From assembly GCA_002841685.1 (NCBI GenBank), contig PHAM01000077.1:1-6874 (forward strand): a DNA stretch of 6,874 nucleotides, read 5' to 3'. Source of the stretch: Elusimicrobia bacterium HGW-Elusimicrobia-2 (GTDB taxonomy: Bacteria; CG03). Below are positions 152 to 6,874 of this stretch, one piece after another. A program made the translations under genes and the position numbers. The notes below the pieces were generated by a model. It was not told where the DNA came from and made no database searches. It worked only from the letters and a program-made list of their open reading frames with translations. Positions within the stretch are counted from its first letter, which is position 1; the number at the start of each line of letters is the position of its first letter.

Positions 152-1495
152 ATGCTGAAAGAACTCTTAAAACCCGAAATACAGGAAATGATCGCAGAGA
201 AAGCCTGGCATTCCCTCAAGGAAATTCTTCTTGAATGGCCGGAGGCCGATATCGCCGATCTTCTTAAAAATCTTGAGGACAAGGAAGCCATCGTTCTTTT
301 TATGCTTCTTCCGAAACAACTGAAGGCCGAGACCTTTGCCGAACTGGATCCCGAGAAACAGACGGTCTTCCTGAAAAGGATAGGCGATGAGGTGATAAGG
401 GATATTGTCCTGGAATTATCCCCCGATGACAGAACTGAGCTCTTTGAGGAGCTTCCGGGGCGAATCACAAAAAAACTGATAAATTTCCTGCCGCCGGAAG
501 AGAGAAAAGAGACGCTGAAACTCCTTGGTTATCCCGAAGAGAGCGTCGGCCGGCTTATGACGCCGGACTATGTCGCCATCCGTCCGGAATGGACGGTGCG
601 GGAATCGCTGGATCACATACGGGAATTCGGCCATGACGCGGAAACCGTCAACAGGGTATATGTGATCGACGAGCACTGGCATCTTCTGGACGATATATCT
701 CTAAGGAAGCTGATACTCGCGGATCTCTCCAATGAGGTATCATCCTTGATGGACAGGAACTTTATAGCGGTTTCACCCTTTGATGATCAAGAGGTCGCTG
801 TGAGAAAGATCAAGAAATACGATCTTTACGCGATTCCCGTCGTGGATTCCGAAAATGTCCTTTTAGGAATAGTGACGGTTGATGACGTCATAGATGTTTT
901 TGAGGAGGAGGTCACGGAAGACGTGCACAAGGCCGGCGGTATCGTACCTCTTACGATGAGTTATACTGCCGCATCCCCGCTTGTTCTGTATAAGAAGAGG
1001 ATTGTCTGGCTATTCCTGTTGCTGGTTACCGGCTTTTTGTCTTCTGCTGTTATTACCCGTTTTGAGGGAATACTTGTGAAAGTTGTTGCTCTTGCCGCCT
1101 TCATACCTGTTCTGATTGATACGGGTGGCAATATCGGCAATCAGGCCTCGGTTCTCATCGTTCGTGCTCTGGCTCTTGGAGAGCTCACCACAGGCAAATG
1201 GTTTAACATCATAAAAAAAGAACTGGCCATAGGTATTTTGCTGGGCTTGACGCTGGGCCTTGTCATGGGTTTGTGGGGATACCTCTGGAAGGGCGATCAC
1301 AGATTTGGCCTTGTTGTGGGAATTTCCATTATTTTAATTGCTGTGTGGGCGAATTTGGTGGGGAGTCTTCTACCTATCATTCTCACTAAACTGAAAAAAG
1401 ATCCGGCGATTATCTGTGCTTCTCTTCTGACAACGCTCATAGACATAACGGGGTTGCTGATTTATTTTTCAATAGCCGGTCTGCTGTTGTTTTAA
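152..1495 (+). CDS. mgtE: Magnesium transporter/channel MgtE
   Basis: This is a 447-residue MgtE protein, matching the family's usual length of about 450. It is an inner-membrane Mg2+ channel gated by cytoplasmic Mg2+. The order is standard: an acidic helical N domain (about 1-130), a tandem CBS pair (about 131-257, starting SVGRLMTPDYVAI and ending VTVDDVIDVFEEEV), a plug-helix region, then five membrane segments (about 283-447). The family signature GGNIGNQASVLIVRALALGE spans 325-344. Asp431 in TTLIDITG matches the pore Asp432 of Thermus MgtE by context and numbering. In the last helix the SGP commonly seen before the TT pair reads CAS (422-424). ATG 152 is the first start codon after an in-frame stop at 98-100. 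It has no clear Shine-Dalgarno, so it may be leaderless or coupled to the 79-144 ORF. No terminator is evident downstream. It is likely transcribed separately from the efflux operon. Confidence 0.95.
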   Translation: MLKELLKPEIQEMIAEKAWHSLKEILLEWPEADIADLLKNLEDKEAIVLFMLLPKQLKAETFAELDPEKQTVFLKRIGDEVIRDIVLELSPDDRTELFEELPGRITKKLINFLPPEERKETLKLLGYPEESVGRLMTPDYVAIRPEWTVRESLDHIREFGHDAETVNRVYVIDEHWHLLDDISLRKLILADLSNEVSSLMDRNFIAVSPFDDQEVAVRKIKKYDLYAIPVVDSENVLLGIVTVDDVIDVFEEEVTEDVHKAGGIVPLTMSYTAASPLVLYKKRIVWLFLLLVTGFLSSAVITRFEGILVKVVALAAFIPVLIDTGGNIGNQASVLIVRALALGELTTGKWFNIIKKELAIGILLGLTLGLVMGLWGYLWKGDHRFGLVVGISIILIAVWANLVGSLLPIILTKLKKDPAIICASLLTTLIDITGLLIYFSIAGLLLF

Positions 1496-1589: not shown

Positions 1590-1609
1590 ATGACTGACCG
1601 GTCAGTCAT
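1590..1609. promoter_or_regulatory. Putative TetR-family operator (perfect 20-bp palindrome)
   Basis: The half-site ATGACTGACC is followed directly by its exact reverse complement, giving a gapless 20-bp palindrome; the flanking bases (T at both 1589 and 1610) no longer pair. ACTGACCGGTCAGT-type palindromes are familiar upstream of TetR/AcrR-type regulator genes. It starts 2 bp after the -10 box and covers the predicted transcription start, so a bound dimer would block RNA polymerase. The most likely ligand is the regulator encoded directly downstream, giving autorepression of the whole operon. Confidence 0.8.
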
Positions 1610-1628
1610 TCGATTAGCGCTGTCCGGC

Positions 1629-1633
1629 GGAGG
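1629..1633 (+). promoter_or_regulatory. Ribosome-binding site fixing the regulator's start
   Basis: GGAGG within a longer purine run (1629-1640) lies 7 nt before the ATG at 1641. The only in-frame ATG upstream, at 1590, is the first base of the operator, has no Shine-Dalgarno and sits at or before the predicted transcription start, so it cannot be translated from this promoter. Confidence 0.8.
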
Positions 1634-1640
1634 GGGGAGA

Positions 1641-2219
1641 ATGCCGAAAAGCGGGATAATAATAGAGGCCTTGAAAAAAGTCATAATTGAAAAAGGCGTC
1701 AAAAACATCACATCCGAGGCCATCGCGAAAAAAGCGGGAATGGCCAAGGGCACGCTCTACCTTTATTTCAAAACGAAAGAGGATATGATCAGCACCCTCG
1801 TTGAAAGTTTTCTGAAAGAGGGCGAGGAACTTGTCGGCTCATCCCTGCGGACAAAAGGCGGTGCCATCGCGAAACTGAGGGCCTTTGTAGAGGCCGATTT
1901 GAGTTTTTACGAGAAAAACCACAAGATTTTCAGGACGCTCGGGATGGAAAATTCCGCCATGGGAAATCTTCTCAGCAAAGCGAAGAAAAAGATGATCTTA
2001 AAGCGTTATTTTAAAATAGTGGAAGCGATAGGCAGGACGGTCAAAGAGGGCATAGCCGAAAATAAAATAGAGAAGATGCCGCCGATAGAAGGCGCCGTGC
2101 TGCTCATGCAGATAATACACGCTTACGCGGGGATGAGGATACACGAAATTTCAAAGTGCTCTATCGCCGGCAACACCGACAAGGTGCTTAAAATATTTTT
2201 GAATGGAGTGGGCGTATGA
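1641..2219 (+). CDS. TetR/AcrR-family transcriptional repressor
   Basis: This 192-residue protein has the length and layout of TetR-family repressors, which bind palindromic DNA as dimers and release it on ligand binding. The N-terminal DNA-binding domain (about 3-50) carries the family helix-turn-helix at 24-43, SEAIAKKAGMAKGTLYLYF, followed by KTKEDM. The helical C-terminal part (about 55-192) is the ligand/dimer domain; it is too variable to predict a ligand. A 209-residue reading from ATG 1590 is rejected because that codon is in the operator. The stop overlaps the ATG of the outer-membrane factor gene (ATGA, 2216-2219). As first gene of a pump operon it most likely controls its own and the pump's expression. 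The family call is firm; the regulatory target is inferred from the operator and gene order. Confidence 0.92.
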   Translation: MPKSGIIIEALKKVIIEKGVKNITSEAIAKKAGMAKGTLYLYFKTKEDMISTLVESFLKEGEELVGSSLRTKGGAIAKLRAFVEADLSFYEKNHKIFRTLGMENSAMGNLLSKAKKKMILKRYFKIVEAIGRTVKEGIAENKIEKMPPIEGAVLLMQIIHAYAGMRIHEISKCSIAGNTDKVLKIFLNGVGV

Positions 2220-3541
2220 AGAAATGCTGCATTCCGGCATTTGTCTTTTGTTTAGCCGTTGCCTGCAATACCGCCTTGGCGGATACGATAAACGCCGGTG
2301 CGGGTAAGGCTGAGCAGGGACTTACTCTTGAAAACTGTCTTGATATAGCTTCGCGCGAGAGCGATATGATAAAGATAGCTTCGGAAGAGGTCATCGCGGC
2401 CTTGGGCCTGAAGCGGCAGGCGAGGGGGGCTTTTATGCCGGATATAAAGCTTTACGGCGCATACAGCAAGATACCCGAGGTGCCGTCCATCCTGGGTTTT
2501 GAAATGGGCAGCGAGGATAATTATTCGGGCAAAGTGACGCTGACTCAGCCGCTTTTCACCTGGGGCAGGATCTTACAGGGCTACAGGCAGGCCCGTTACG
2601 GGGAAGATATCGCGGAAGAAAGTTACCGTCAGGCGCGGAATGAACTGTACTCCAATGTTAAGACGGCTTTTTATTCGGTTCTGCTGGCAAGGCATTTGAA
2701 GAATATCGCCGCCGAAACTCTTTCCGTCATGGAAAGGCATTACGAGGTGACGCGGGCGCTTTACAACGCGGGCAAAGTATCCGGCCTTGATGTTTCCCGT
2801 GTCAAGGTGCAGACGGTAAACAGCCGGACCAACCTGATAAAAGCCGAGAATGAGCTGAACCTTGCCAGAAAAGCCCTCGTCTACATCATCAATGAACCGT
2901 CAATCGCGGATAGGGATATCAGCGGCGAGCTTTCCGCCTCTCCCGACAGCGGACGGCCACTCGATGAATATATTGAAACGGCTTTCAGATCCAGGCCGGA
3001 ACTTTTGAGCGCCGCAACCCGGACAAAAATGGGTGAGAGCCTTGTGAAGCTCGCCCGCGCCGAACACCGGCCGAGCCTCGCTCTCATAGGAAACTATGAA
3101 TACACGAAACCCTACAATTTCGTCGATGAGTGGGACAGCGCATGGAATGTTTCCTGCGCCCTCACCTTTCCTCTTTTCAGCGGTTTCTCGAGTTTCGGCC
3201 AGGTCAAAGCCGCCAAATCCCGCTTTAATCAGATGGCGATGGGCGAGAGCCTTTTGAGGAGCAGCGTCAAGCTGGAAGTTGAGCGGGCCTTTCTGAACAG
3301 GCAGAACGCTTCGGAGAGGATACGGGTTCAGGAAGAGAATGTGAAGGCGGCGAAAGAGAATCTCGCTATTATAGAGAAACGCTACGGCCGCGGCCTTGTT
3401 TCAGATCTGGAACTGAGGGACACCCAGCTTGCTTTCACGCAGGCGCAGGTGCAGTATTACACAGCCCTCTTTGACTGGAACATAGCCGACGCGGAACTAA
3501 AAAAAGCCACGGGGCAGTATGGAGATGAAAATGAAAAATAA
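2216..3541 (+). CDS. TolC-family outer-membrane efflux protein
   Basis: At 441 residues this is a typical outer-membrane factor, forming the trimeric channel that carries substrate out of tripartite pumps. A signal peptide covers about 1-22, with basic MKK, a hydrophobic core and an ALA cleavage site before Asp23. A cysteine at 17 (VAC) is a poor lipobox, so signal peptidase I cleavage is more likely. Two repeated OEP halves follow: the first begins LTLENCLDIA (36-45) and includes QPLFTWGR (111-118); the second includes ALTFPLFSGFSSFGQVKAAK (315-334) and ends in the helical GLVSDLELRDTQLAFTQAQ (393-411). These LF(T/S)xG strand segments and long Gln/Ala-rich helices are characteristic. GGAG at 2205-2208 lies 7 nt before the ATG. 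The start overlaps the regulator by 4 nt and the end overlaps the adaptor gene. The coiled coil is not visibly lengthened to compensate for the short adaptor. Substrate is unknown. Confidence 0.93.
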   Translation: MKKCCIPAFVFCLAVACNTALADTINAGAGKAEQGLTLENCLDIASRESDMIKIASEEVIAALGLKRQARGAFMPDIKLYGAYSKIPEVPSILGFEMGSEDNYSGKVTLTQPLFTWGRILQGYRQARYGEDIAEESYRQARNELYSNVKTAFYSVLLARHLKNIAAETLSVMERHYEVTRALYNAGKVSGLDVSRVKVQTVNSRTNLIKAENELNLARKALVYIINEPSIADRDISGELSASPDSGRPLDEYIETAFRSRPELLSAATRTKMGESLVKLARAEHRPSLALIGNYEYTKPYNFVDEWDSAWNVSCALTFPLFSGFSSFGQVKAAKSRFNQMAMGESLLRSSVKLEVERAFLNRQNASERIRVQEENVKAAKENLAIIEKRYGRGLVSDLELRDTQLAFTQAQVQYYTALFDWNIADAELKKATGQYGDENEK

Positions 3542-4412
3542 AATTCTTATGGCTTTGTCAGGTATTATGATCTTGTCACTGATATCCTGCGGCGCAGACA
3601 AGGGGAAGGCCGCCGGCAAGGAGCAGTCCACACGCGTGAAACTGGTCGTTGCGGTCACGGGCGGCATAGAAGAGACTTTATCCCTCACGGGTGATATACA
3701 CGGCGAGAAAGAAGTGAAAGTTTTCGCGAAGGTCACCGGCAAACTCATTGACAAGAAGAAGAAGGAAGGCGACCGTCTGCGCTCAGGGGAAGTGATAGCT
3801 CTGATTGACAGGGATGAAACAGCCCTTGATTTCAGCCGCGCGGAGGTTGTCTCCCCCATAAAAGGAATACTGACAATGTTCTATCCCGATCTGGGCGACG
3901 CTGTTTTTCCGTCCCCCGGCGAACCCATTGCGGTTGTCGCCGACATGGACAGGGTCAAAATAATTGTTTATCTGAACCCCGTCGACGCTGTCAGGGTGCG
4001 GGAGGGACAGAAGGTGAGGGCATACACGGATGCTTATGAAGGCCGCCGCTTTGAAGGCGCGATAAGTCTCGTAGCTCCGGCGGCGAATCCGGCCACGAGA
4101 AAGATCAAAGCCGAAGTGACAATACCCAACAGCGACCATCTTTTGAAGCCTGGCACGTTCGCGAGGGTGGAGATAGTGATAGGCCGCCGCGGGGGTATTT
4201 TAACGCTGCCCAAAAAGGCGGTGCGTTCAGTCGAGGAAAAACAATTTGTGAGCATCGTTAAGGATGACCGGGCGGAATCACGGGAAGTGCTCACGGGCAT
4301 CGCGGATGAGAATTTGATTGAGATCCGCGAGGGACTGGCGGAGGGCGAATCCGTGATACTTGAAGGGAATTACGGTCTTTCCGACGGCACGAAAGTGATC
4401 GTGGTAGAATAA
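3531..4412 (+). CDS. RND efflux periplasmic adaptor (HlyD/AcrA type), hairpin-less lipoprotein
   Basis: I prefer ATG 3531 (293 aa) because GGAG at 3521-3524 lies 6 nt upstream; in-frame ATGs at 3519 and 3525 are possible. The N terminus is a lipoprotein signal with lipobox LISC, placing the lipidated Cys at 20. Next come the lipoyl first half (about 62-93, AKVTGKLIDKKKKEGDRLRS), the second half (about 104-138, VVSPIKGILTMF), a beta-barrel (about 142-218, including LKPGTFARVEI) and a membrane-proximal domain (about 221-293). The two lipoyl halves are joined by only about ten residues (94-103, RDETALDFSR), where RND adaptors normally carry a long two-helix hairpin that meets TolC. Borrelia BesA is a known adaptor lacking this hairpin. 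The reading frame is intact across the junction. The gene overlaps the TolC gene by 11 nt and ends 1 nt before the permease, so it is surely part of the same pump. Confidence 0.9.
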   Translation: MKNKILMALSGIMILSLISCGADKGKAAGKEQSTRVKLVVAVTGGIEETLSLTGDIHGEKEVKVFAKVTGKLIDKKKKEGDRLRSGEVIALIDRDETALDFSRAEVVSPIKGILTMFYPDLGDAVFPSPGEPIAVVADMDRVKIIVYLNPVDAVRVREGQKVRAYTDAYEGRRFEGAISLVAPAANPATRKIKAEVTIPNSDHLLKPGTFARVEIVIGRRGGILTLPKKAVRSVEEKQFVSIVKDDRAESREVLTGIADENLIEIREGLAEGESVILEGNYGLSDGTKVIVVE

Positions 4413-4413
4413 T

Positions 4414-6822
4414 ATGACCATACCTGAATTTTCCGTAAAAAGACGCGTGACCATAACGATGCTCATGCTGATAATAGTTTTGGGCGGTGTTGTGTCTTTT
4501 TTCAGCCTCGGCCTGGATCTGATGCCGGACATGGAATTCCCCATGATCAGCGTCGTGACAAGATATGAAGGCGTGGCGCCGGAAGATATAGAGAATCTGC
4601 TGACAAAGCCCATAGAAGAGGCCTGCGGCTCGCTCAAGGGGATGAAGAATATATATTCAACCTCACTCGAGGGTTCTTCGGTGGTGAGGATAGAGTTTGA
4701 GTGGGGCACCAATCTTGATTTCGCGGCTCAGGACGCGCGGGAAAGCATAGACATGATGAGGATGATGATCCCCAGCGACGCCGACAGCTCAGCGGTGCTG
4801 AAATTTGATATGTCGCAGATGCCTGTTGTTTTCTTCGGAATTATCGGACTCAAAGACACGATGGAGCTGAGGGAATATATAAAAGACAGTGTGGTGCCGA
4901 AACTGGAGAGGCTTGACGGAGTGGCAAGCGCCATGGTCTTCGGCGGCCGCGATCGCGAGATCAATGTGCTCATAAACAGGTTCAAACTCAACGCTTACGG
5001 GATTTCCATGGATGAGATCGCATCGGCCCTGTCCGCGGATAATATTAATGTTTCAGCGGGACAGGTGACGGAAAAATATACGGAATATTTTGTGAGGACT
5101 CTAGGCGAATATAAAAAGATATCCGATCTGGAAAATACCATTATAAGGAAGACAGGCGATGTGCCGATCTACCTTAAAGACATAGCCGAAGTCAGGGATT
5201 CATATAAAGAGCAGCGCGACATAACCAGGCTTAACGGTAAAGAGGCTGTTCTGATGATGATATCCAAGCAATCCGGCGCCAACACCGTGCTGACCGTCGA
5301 CCGCGTTAAAAAGACGCTGGATGAGATGAAAGAGACAATGCCGGCAGACATAGAATTCTTCCCCGTGATGGACCAGGCGCACATAATAAAGAAAATACTG
5401 AAAAACACGCTGTTAAACGCTTTGGTGGGCGGTGTGCTGGCCGTTTTTTTCCTTTACGCCTTTCTCAGGAACTGGCGCCCCACATTCGGGATATTTCTGG
5501 CCATACCCATCTCCATAATAACGACTTTTATCGGACTTTATCTCATGGGTTACACATTCAATATTTTTACGCTCGCCGGTTTCGCTCTTGTGGTGGGAAT
5601 GCTCGTTGATAACGCTGTGGTCGTCATCGAGAATATATTCAGGAAGCTTGAGGCTGGAGAAGAAAGGCCGCGGGCCGCCGCGCAGGGCGCCACGGAGGTT
5701 GGGATGGCCATCACCACATCAACCCTGACGACGATAGCGGTTTTCCTGCCGATGGTGCTTTCAAAGGGCTTCGCAGGCCAGATATCAAGGCCGCTTGCGA
5801 TGACGGTCTGCGCCGGGCTTTTATCGTCTCTTCTGGTCGCGCTGACTATCGTGCCGATGGTGGCCTCTGTTCTTTTCAAAAAAAGAAAAAAGATAGCACC
5901 CGCCGAACTGGAAAAAAGAAAATTCGAAAAATTCAAACAGCGCTATATCGCTCTGCTGGCTCTCGCCCTGAAGAGAAAAAAACTCGTCATATTTTCATCC
6001 CTCGGAGTTTTTTTTCTGAGCCTTTTCGGACTCATGATAACCGGCCTGGAATTCATGCCGCAGTCCGATACGCCCATAGTGATGATGATGACCTCTTTTC
6101 CTGTCGGCACAGACCTTGATGAGACCAGCAGGGTCGTTGAGCAGATCAGTGAAGATTTTATGAATGTGCCGGAAAAAATGTATGTGCTGACGATGATAGG
6201 CCGCAGTTCTTACGGAGACACCGACGCGGCCATGGGAACAATGCCCGCGGATGTCAATGAGGGGATGATAATGTCGCGCATGGTGGATCTTGAAAAGAGG
6301 AAGAGGACGGTATTCGAAATATCAGATGAGCTGAGAGAAAAGTTTCCCCCCGTTGAGGGTGTGACATATAAATTTTCGGACATGGGGAGTCAGATGTCGG
6401 GGAGTATGTCTCAGACCCCCGTTGAGCTCAAACTCTTCGGCCGGGATCTGGATGAGATGGAAAGATACGCTAAAGGAATTGCCGAGAGGATCAAGGATGT
6501 GCCGGGTTTGAGAGATGTGACCATTTCACTTAAAGAAGGCAAGCCTGAGATACAGGTGCTTGTTGACCGTGACAGAGCGGCTCATTTCGGCATGAGAGTC
6601 TCTCAGATAGGAAAGACGGTGCAAAACGCGCTTTTGGGAAAGGTCGCCACTAAATACAGGGCATACGGTGAAGAGACCGATGTGAGGATAAGATTCAGCG
6701 AAGAAGACCGCGATAGTCCGGCAGACATAGCGAAGATCACTCTGCCTGCCCCGGCCGGGCAAACCATATATTTGAAAATGACTATGTCGTTAGTGCAGAA
6801 AACGGCATTTCCTCCTTTTTAA
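4414..6822 (+). CDS. RND-family efflux permease, C-terminally truncated
   Basis: This is the first 802 residues of an inner-membrane proton-driven RND pump; full-length relatives run about 1000-1050. TM1 is at about 13-33, the first porter loop at 34-330, TM2-TM6 at about 331-487, TM7 at about 523-543, and the second porter loop from 544. TM4 has GMLVDNAVVVIEN (395-407), with Asp399-Asn400 where AcrB has Asp407-Asp408. The first loop contains IYLKDIAEV (252-260); the duplicated second loop reaches the matching IYLK (785-788) and then loses similarity, ending in MTMSLVQKTAFPPF and a stop. The end of the second loop and TM8-TM12, including the TM10 lysine of the proton relay, are absent, so this form should not pump. 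Causes could be an insertion, a rearrangement or an assembly join. The start lies 1 nt after the adaptor stop, with only a weak ribosome site, suggesting coupling. It is an HAE-type multidrug pump by overall look; substrate unknown. Confidence 0.9.
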   Translation: MTIPEFSVKRRVTITMLMLIIVLGGVVSFFSLGLDLMPDMEFPMISVVTRYEGVAPEDIENLLTKPIEEACGSLKGMKNIYSTSLEGSSVVRIEFEWGTNLDFAAQDARESIDMMRMMIPSDADSSAVLKFDMSQMPVVFFGIIGLKDTMELREYIKDSVVPKLERLDGVASAMVFGGRDREINVLINRFKLNAYGISMDEIASALSADNINVSAGQVTEKYTEYFVRTLGEYKKISDLENTIIRKTGDVPIYLKDIAEVRDSYKEQRDITRLNGKEAVLMMISKQSGANTVLTVDRVKKTLDEMKETMPADIEFFPVMDQAHIIKKILKNTLLNALVGGVLAVFFLYAFLRNWRPTFGIFLAIPISIITTFIGLYLMGYTFNIFTLAGFALVVGMLVDNAVVVIENIFRKLEAGEERPRAAAQGATEVGMAITTSTLTTIAVFLPMVLSKGFAGQISRPLAMTVCAGLLSSLLVALTIVPMVASVLFKKRKKIAPAELEKRKFEKFKQRYIALLALALKRKKLVIFSSLGVFFLSLFGLMITGLEFMPQSDTPIVMMMTSFPVGTDLDETSRVVEQISEDFMNVPEKMYVLTMIGRSSYGDTDAAMGTMPADVNEGMIMSRMVDLEKRKRTVFEISDELREKFPPVEGVTYKFSDMGSQMSGSMSQTPVELKLFGRDLDEMERYAKGIAERIKDVPGLRDVTISLKEGKPEIQVLVDRDRAAHFGMRVSQIGKTVQNALLGKVATKYRAYGEETDVRIRFSEEDRDSPADIAKITLPAPAGQTIYLKMTMSLVQKTAFPPF

Positions 6823-6874
6823 GGCAAGCTAAAAGCAATCGGTCAAACAATTCGTGATAATGTCTTCGCCGGTT
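6778..6874. other. Unassigned right-end segment after the RND break
   Basis: From about 6778 no frame continues the RND protein. Two short open stretches exist. On the plus strand, the frame at 6771-6857 reads FENDYVVSAENG and stops at 6855-6857; it faintly resembles the start of a response-regulator receiver domain. On the minus strand, a frame entering from the window edge runs 6874 to a TAG at 6782-6784 (30 residues, ending KKEEMPFSALTT) and could be the tail of a convergent gene. Neither can be identified. Confidence 0.4.

Follow-up and report, generated by a model that had tools for sequence, protein, structure and literature searches.

The periplasmic adaptor encoded by the RND efflux operon in the window (the whole 6,874-nucleotide stretch of DNA that we analysed) has no alpha-helical hairpin; instead, its two lipoyl halves are joined by a linker of 12 residues. 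Judged by sequence comparison, it is a member of an already known, thinly described kind of adaptor, that of BesA, and this kind is far wider than has been recorded. What is new here is the prevalence of these adaptors, the fixed length of their 12-residue loop, the ordinary character of their partner proteins and their scattered distribution among permease lineages. The adaptor hairpin is central to current models of these pumps, and BesA has been regarded as an oddity at variance with tip-to-tip assembly.

The window corresponds in full to one contig (G000:C29) of a 1.78 Mb genome that is 96% complete and assembled in 94 contigs; the nearest named relative that we found is Elusimicrobia bacterium CG03_land_8_20_14_0_80_50_18. 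Genes for a TetR-family regulator, a TolC-family outer-membrane factor (OMF), the adaptor and an RND permease lie on the same strand and are overlapping or tightly spaced (Table 1): the stop of the TetR gene overlaps the start of the OMF gene, the start of the adaptor gene overlaps the OMF gene, and the permease gene begins 2 bases past the adaptor stop. Weak matches of the regulator include the MtrR and AcrR models, the best PDB match of the OMF is OprM (E=1.1e-15), and the adaptor, with a score of 149.9 bits, exceeds the cut-off of 94.9 set for the RND_mfp model TIGR01730. The best explanation of the window is a TetR-OMF-adaptor-permease operon for a putative tripartite RND (HAE-1-like) efflux pump. 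The only other TolC-family gene in the source genome (L181, G000:C84:5480-6778) has no adjoining adaptor or RND gene; its neighbors read as argininosuccinate lyase-like and patatin-like genes.

Table 1. Features of the window, with positions counted from its first nucleotide
Feature	Position	Strand	Basis or remark
MgtE transporter gene	152-1495		5' of TetR gene
TetR-family regulator, 209 aa, first gene of the cluster	1590..2219	+	Pfam TetR_N E=1.6e-13
TolC-family outer-membrane factor (OMF), 441 aa	2216..3541	+	Pfam OEP E=1.4e-62, two repeats
OMF entrance ring, E399 and D402	3410..3421	+	Alignment to TolC and OprM; equivalent to TolC D371, D374
RND periplasmic adaptor without alpha-helical hairpin, 297 aa	3519..4412	+	TIGR01730; full-length match to BesA 4kks
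Signal peptide, lipobox LISC, predicted lipidated Cys24	3519..3590	+	Read from translation
First lipoyl half, about residues 66-97, ends ALID	3714..3809	+	Alignments; boundaries approximate
12-residue linker RDETALDFSRAE at the hairpin position	3810..3845	+	R98-E109; alignments
Second lipoyl half, from VVSPIKG, about residues 110-141	3846..3941	+	Alignments; boundaries approximate
RND permease, codons 1-787	4414..6776	+	ACR_tran E=1.5e-181; gene broken here
Insertion element, left end, inside permease gene	6776..6874	+	Terminal inverted repeat 6776-6800

The adaptor gene is one intact frame, and its product retains both lipoyl halves together with the barrel and membrane-proximal domains. The last residue of ALID is D97 (codon 3807-3809), and the first residue of VVSPIKG is V110 (codon at 3846). 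The stretch of about 60 or more residues that marks the hairpin of AcrA/MexA-type adaptors at this point is absent. AcrA/MexA/MdtA-type adaptors (TIGR01730) resemble the window protein in their lipoyl, barrel and membrane-proximal domains and in sharing an operon with an RND permease, but where the window adaptor has its short linker they possess a hairpin, about 60-75 residues long, for packing on TolC/OprM. Features of the BesA arrangement, by comparison, are present: a short loop joins the lipoyl halves, the other domains are complete, and the gene stands in an OMF-adaptor-permease operon, the permease gene being interrupted farther downstream. A sequence-only reading of the window had described an RND adaptor without a hairpin in a single intact frame, and this description stands. 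Its linker of about ten residues is, however, one of twelve, and the interval that it gave, 3807-3842, covers D97-A108 and lies one codon off. An adaptor-only structure prediction, for which the alignment consisted of the window sequence and one orthologue, was poor (mean pLDDT 41) and was set aside. A search of viral contigs for further relatives of the adaptor found none.

The closest parallel of solved structure is BesA, from the BesABC pump of Borrelia burgdorferi (PDB 4KKS/4KKT/4KKU; PMC3807786, PMC2279261), which likewise lacks a hairpin and is encoded in OMF-adaptor-permease order. A search with the window adaptor alone gave BesA (4kks) as the best solved match, over residues 32 to 296 and without an insertion at the linker. 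A profile built from 41 relatives gave a single full-length match to BesA (E=2.1e-59), ungapped at the linker, whereas it matched AcrA, MexA, MacA and other hairpin adaptors in separate pieces or in the second half only. BesA is the sole solved structure that aligns with the window adaptor in one full-length stretch. By our count the BesA linker, PSRPGSVYLKSP, has 12 residues like that of the window; the structure paper counts the loop as nine residues (PMC3807786). The predicted lipidated Cys24 is comparable to Cys26 of BesA (PMC3807786). The two proteins differ in being distant in sequence and in falling, on weakly supported branches, in different parts of the adaptor tree. Genetic experiments on besCAB have shown functional tripartite efflux without a hairpin (PMC3807786).

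Because the adaptor lies on a short contig of a fragmented assembly (94 contigs), and this contig ends in a broken gene, it had to be considered whether a hairpin-bearing adaptor had been altered by a local deletion, a frameshift or a collapse of the assembly. Orthologues from other genomes, at 95, 78, 53, 49 and 35% identity, agree with the window adaptor in length and in their 12-residue linker, and all five are found in OMF-adaptor-RND operons of the same gene order. These are the close homologues of equal length and equal context that the sequence-only reading had recommended looking for; homologues with some 60 extra residues exactly at the linker, which it had named as the evidence that would overturn it, are not among the five. 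The adaptor is also under purifying selection, with dN/dS of 0.14 and 0.18 against two orthologues, and its linker length is constant across 57 relatives. The retention of the 12 residues in all five orthologues refutes deletion or assembly collapse, to which we give practically no credence.

Indeed, in each of the 57 hairpin-less adaptors that we examined, including BesA and one from a Legionella fallonii plasmid, the linker is exactly 12 residues long. Its consensus is R[DE]xx[GA]x[KED][FY]xx[AS]x, with R at position 1 in 48 of the 57 and D/E at position 2 in 43; position 5 is G/A in 56 and position 8 is F/Y in 54. Hairpin adaptors in the same alignment carry anything from 28 to 211 residues between their lipoyl halves, with peaks at 64, 78, 92 and 130; heptad insertions and deletions within the hairpin were already known (PMC4446572). 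The constancy of the linker across very distant sequences suggests that it is a constrained element and not a leftover.

Adaptors of this kind are common. Of the 16 genomes from the window's phylum, 13 contain a strong match. A profile search of 386 genomes, which included 370 from other phyla, separated two groups clearly: full-length matches at E<=1e-70 occurred in 31 of the 370, and matches weaker than this were mostly hairpin adaptors, aligned over the second half only. We aligned the loci of these 31 genomes and of four others with weaker full-length matches (G358, G256, G213 and G370), and all have 12 linker residues, so that at least 35 of the 370 outside genomes encode a hairpin-less adaptor; one further genome (G102) has 10 residues at this point. 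In two other phyla that were examined whole, such an adaptor is present in 8 of 10 and 4 of 6 genomes. The assignment to BesA as a described exception was therefore right as to type but not as to rarity: a hairpin-less design, familiar chiefly from the agent of Lyme disease, occurs far more often than textbooks suggest. The BesA paper contains remarks on Treponema, Spirochaeta and Legionella (PMC3807786), and among the open-licence papers that we searched there was no survey of hairpin-less adaptors beyond BesA. One locus (L188, G350:C78) holds a tandem pair of hairpin-less adaptor-permease units with one OMF gene only.

The Legionella fallonii adaptor, encoded on plasmid II (WP_157010450.1), resembles that of the window in its 12-residue linker and in the TolC-adaptor-RND gene order, but it stands in a copper-resistance gene setting, and its permease and adaptor belong to another lineage. 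Absence of the hairpin may therefore have arisen more than once. The plasmid is conjugative, and the operon (L199, plasmid II 15449-26375) is placed between genes for a copper P-type ATPase and a multicopper oxidase. The same lineage includes an adaptor with a 10-residue linker (L179).

If the hairpin is missing, one of the partner proteins might be expected to be longer. The sequence-only reading had judged the TolC partner to be of ordinary length, with no obvious compensation, and this was borne out: all six helical and link segments measured in the window OMF lie within a few residues of TolC and OprM. Across loci, the medians of the OMF segments, measured between fixed anchors, are equal within a residue for the two adaptor classes and are near those of TolC and OprM. 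In the permease, the docking segments DN and DC measure 63 residues whichever class of adaptor the locus encodes. The porter PC segment has class medians about 4 residues apart (158 versus 154, p=4e-4), at a place away from the docking tips. Longer OMF helices or permease docking domains are thus ruled out as compensation, and neither partner has been visibly lengthened to bridge the missing hairpin. The classes do differ in gene order. Of the 57 hairpin-less loci, 50 have an OMF gene immediately upstream of the adaptor gene, compared with 29 of the 61 hairpin loci (Fisher p=4e-6, a count from which kinship has not been removed), and shared ancestry may be part of the reason for this association.

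A different kind of compensation has been put forward for BesC, which has D363/K366 in place of the aspartate ring (PMC2279261); the missing hairpin has been attributed to its altered entrance, lost gates and truncated C-terminus (PMC2279261, PMC4446572, PMC4338810). Extended to the present pump, this would mean that loss of the hairpin was enabled by an OMF already loosened through loss of its acidic ring and gates and truncation of its C-terminus. The window OMF does resemble BesC in extending only 8 residues past the last helix motif. Its entrance ring, however, is not disrupted in the way that a narrow BesABC definition implies, since E399 and D402 are both acidic where BesC has Asp/Lys. 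Nor do the classes differ: an acid is found at the TolC 374-equivalent in 37 of 50 OMF partners of hairpin-less adaptors and in 18 of 29 partners of hairpin adaptors (p=0.31), and the OMF C-terminal tails are equally short in both (p=0.99). Because the acidic ring is kept in the window OMF and in most others, the BesC-based explanation is not general, and we consider it highly improbable for this pump. This does not contradict the BesC data; the altered ring is a trait of BesC, not of the adaptor family.

In tripartite pumps the barrel and membrane-proximal domains of the adaptor bind the permease, and the lipoyl domains form a ring that faces the OMF. On balance we favor an ancient BesA-type adaptor whose lipoyl loops meet the OMF tips and hold the OMF closer to the permease. 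The lipidated adaptor would use its barrel and membrane-proximal domains to encircle the permease; the lipoyl ring and the 12-residue loops on it would touch the OMF tips directly; and opening of the OMF would be driven by contacts with the lipoyl loops and the permease, not by coiled-coil packing. Direct contact of this sort would bring OMF and permease nearer by about one hairpin length. So short a contact would also favor a matched OMF, which agrees with the co-encoded OMF gene. The same lipoyl-OMF contact was proposed by the authors of the BesA structure (PMC3807786); we found no solved structure of a complete hairpin-less pump.

Two other arrangements were weighed against this one. The adaptor might only regulate or stabilize the permease without touching the OMF, leaving OMF and permease to meet tip to tip by themselves, or delivery to end in the periplasm. 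Tip contact of these two proteins alone has been suggested for BesABC (PMC2279261), and the normal length of the permease docking domains would suit it. We nevertheless regard it as unlikely, because the fixed length and motif of the linker suggest contact with something, and because a dedicated OMF gene adjoins the adaptor in most loci. Alternatively, a hairpin could be supplied in trans, either by rings mixed with a second, hairpin-bearing adaptor or by another coiled-coil partner. Two-adaptor pumps such as TriABC do exist (PMC4446572), and the BesA authors left an unknown factor possible (PMC3807786). In the 96%-complete source genome, however, we found one RND permease and one RND adaptor, and therefore no hairpin adaptor to borrow; no adaptor adjoins the second OMF of this genome, nor was one noted in the intact orthologue's operon (L137). 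A hairpin in trans is accordingly a poor candidate. Direct docking by the lipoyl loops thus remains our preferred reading. Since hairpin-less adaptors are common and are paired with ordinary OMFs and permeases, it becomes testable in many systems whether a pump can seal and open its channel when the hairpin is missing.

The history of the class was approached through trees, all of them unrooted, from which no direction of change can be read. Forcing the permeases with hairpin-less partners into one clade cost 1227 log-likelihood units (34 rows, p about 2e-23), and in the full tree of 106 permeases no fewer than 11 changes of adaptor type are required by the branches with strong support. For the adaptors themselves, in a tree made without the linker columns, a single hairpin-less clade is 27 units worse, a difference too small to reject it (p=0.079), although the sequences were chosen for their similarity to the window adaptor, which may make hairpin-less adaptors cluster. 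The starred branches of a larger adaptor tree force at least two changes, and the OMF trees at least three. Read most simply, the trees suggest a small number of old hairpin-less adaptor lineages that have been swapped between lineages of permeases; losses or gains of the hairpin on several occasions would also be compatible with them. We suggest only tentatively, at somewhat less than even confidence, that hairpin-less adaptors are one ancient and widespread class, that the 12-residue loop is an OMF-docking element, and that their genes have been exchanged with those of hairpin adaptors serving the same kinds of permease. If both exchange and docking loop are real, the coiled-coil hairpin would be an optional module of tripartite pumps. 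The neighboring permeases L081 and L143, whose adaptors have 12 and 78 residues at the hairpin position, offer a natural experiment on what the hairpin contributes.

The window permease gene is itself interrupted near 6776, which the sequence-only reading had missed. Similarity to the intact permease orthologue stops at window position 6777, and the remainder of the gene lies on contig C7 of the same genome (G000:C7:10190-10894), which also ends at the break; the other end of the element is at G000:C7:10876-10975 (L180). The same 25 bp occur in inverted orientation at both contig ends, flanked by a duplicated TATTTGAA(A), implying that an insertion element splits the gene after codon 787; the middle of the element is absent from the genome bin. 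Permease orthologues in two other genomes (G004 and G002) are uninterrupted. The part of the gene 5' of the insertion has a dN/dS of 0.06-0.07, which is still low, so the insertion looks recent. With its permease gene split, this copy of the pump is probably inactive now, or the insertion is polymorphic in the population. It has no bearing on the anatomy of the adaptor.

Finally, the survey brought up other adaptors with unusual inserts between the lipoyl halves. Three MacA-like adaptors in the family of the window genome (L182, L183 and L184) have only about 28-30 residues there, a strongly shortened hairpin, and adjoin apparent MacB-type ABC transporter genes. Two RND adaptors of family f26 (L163 and L178) carry a 29-residue insert of unusual sequence at the hairpin position, identical in length across two genera.
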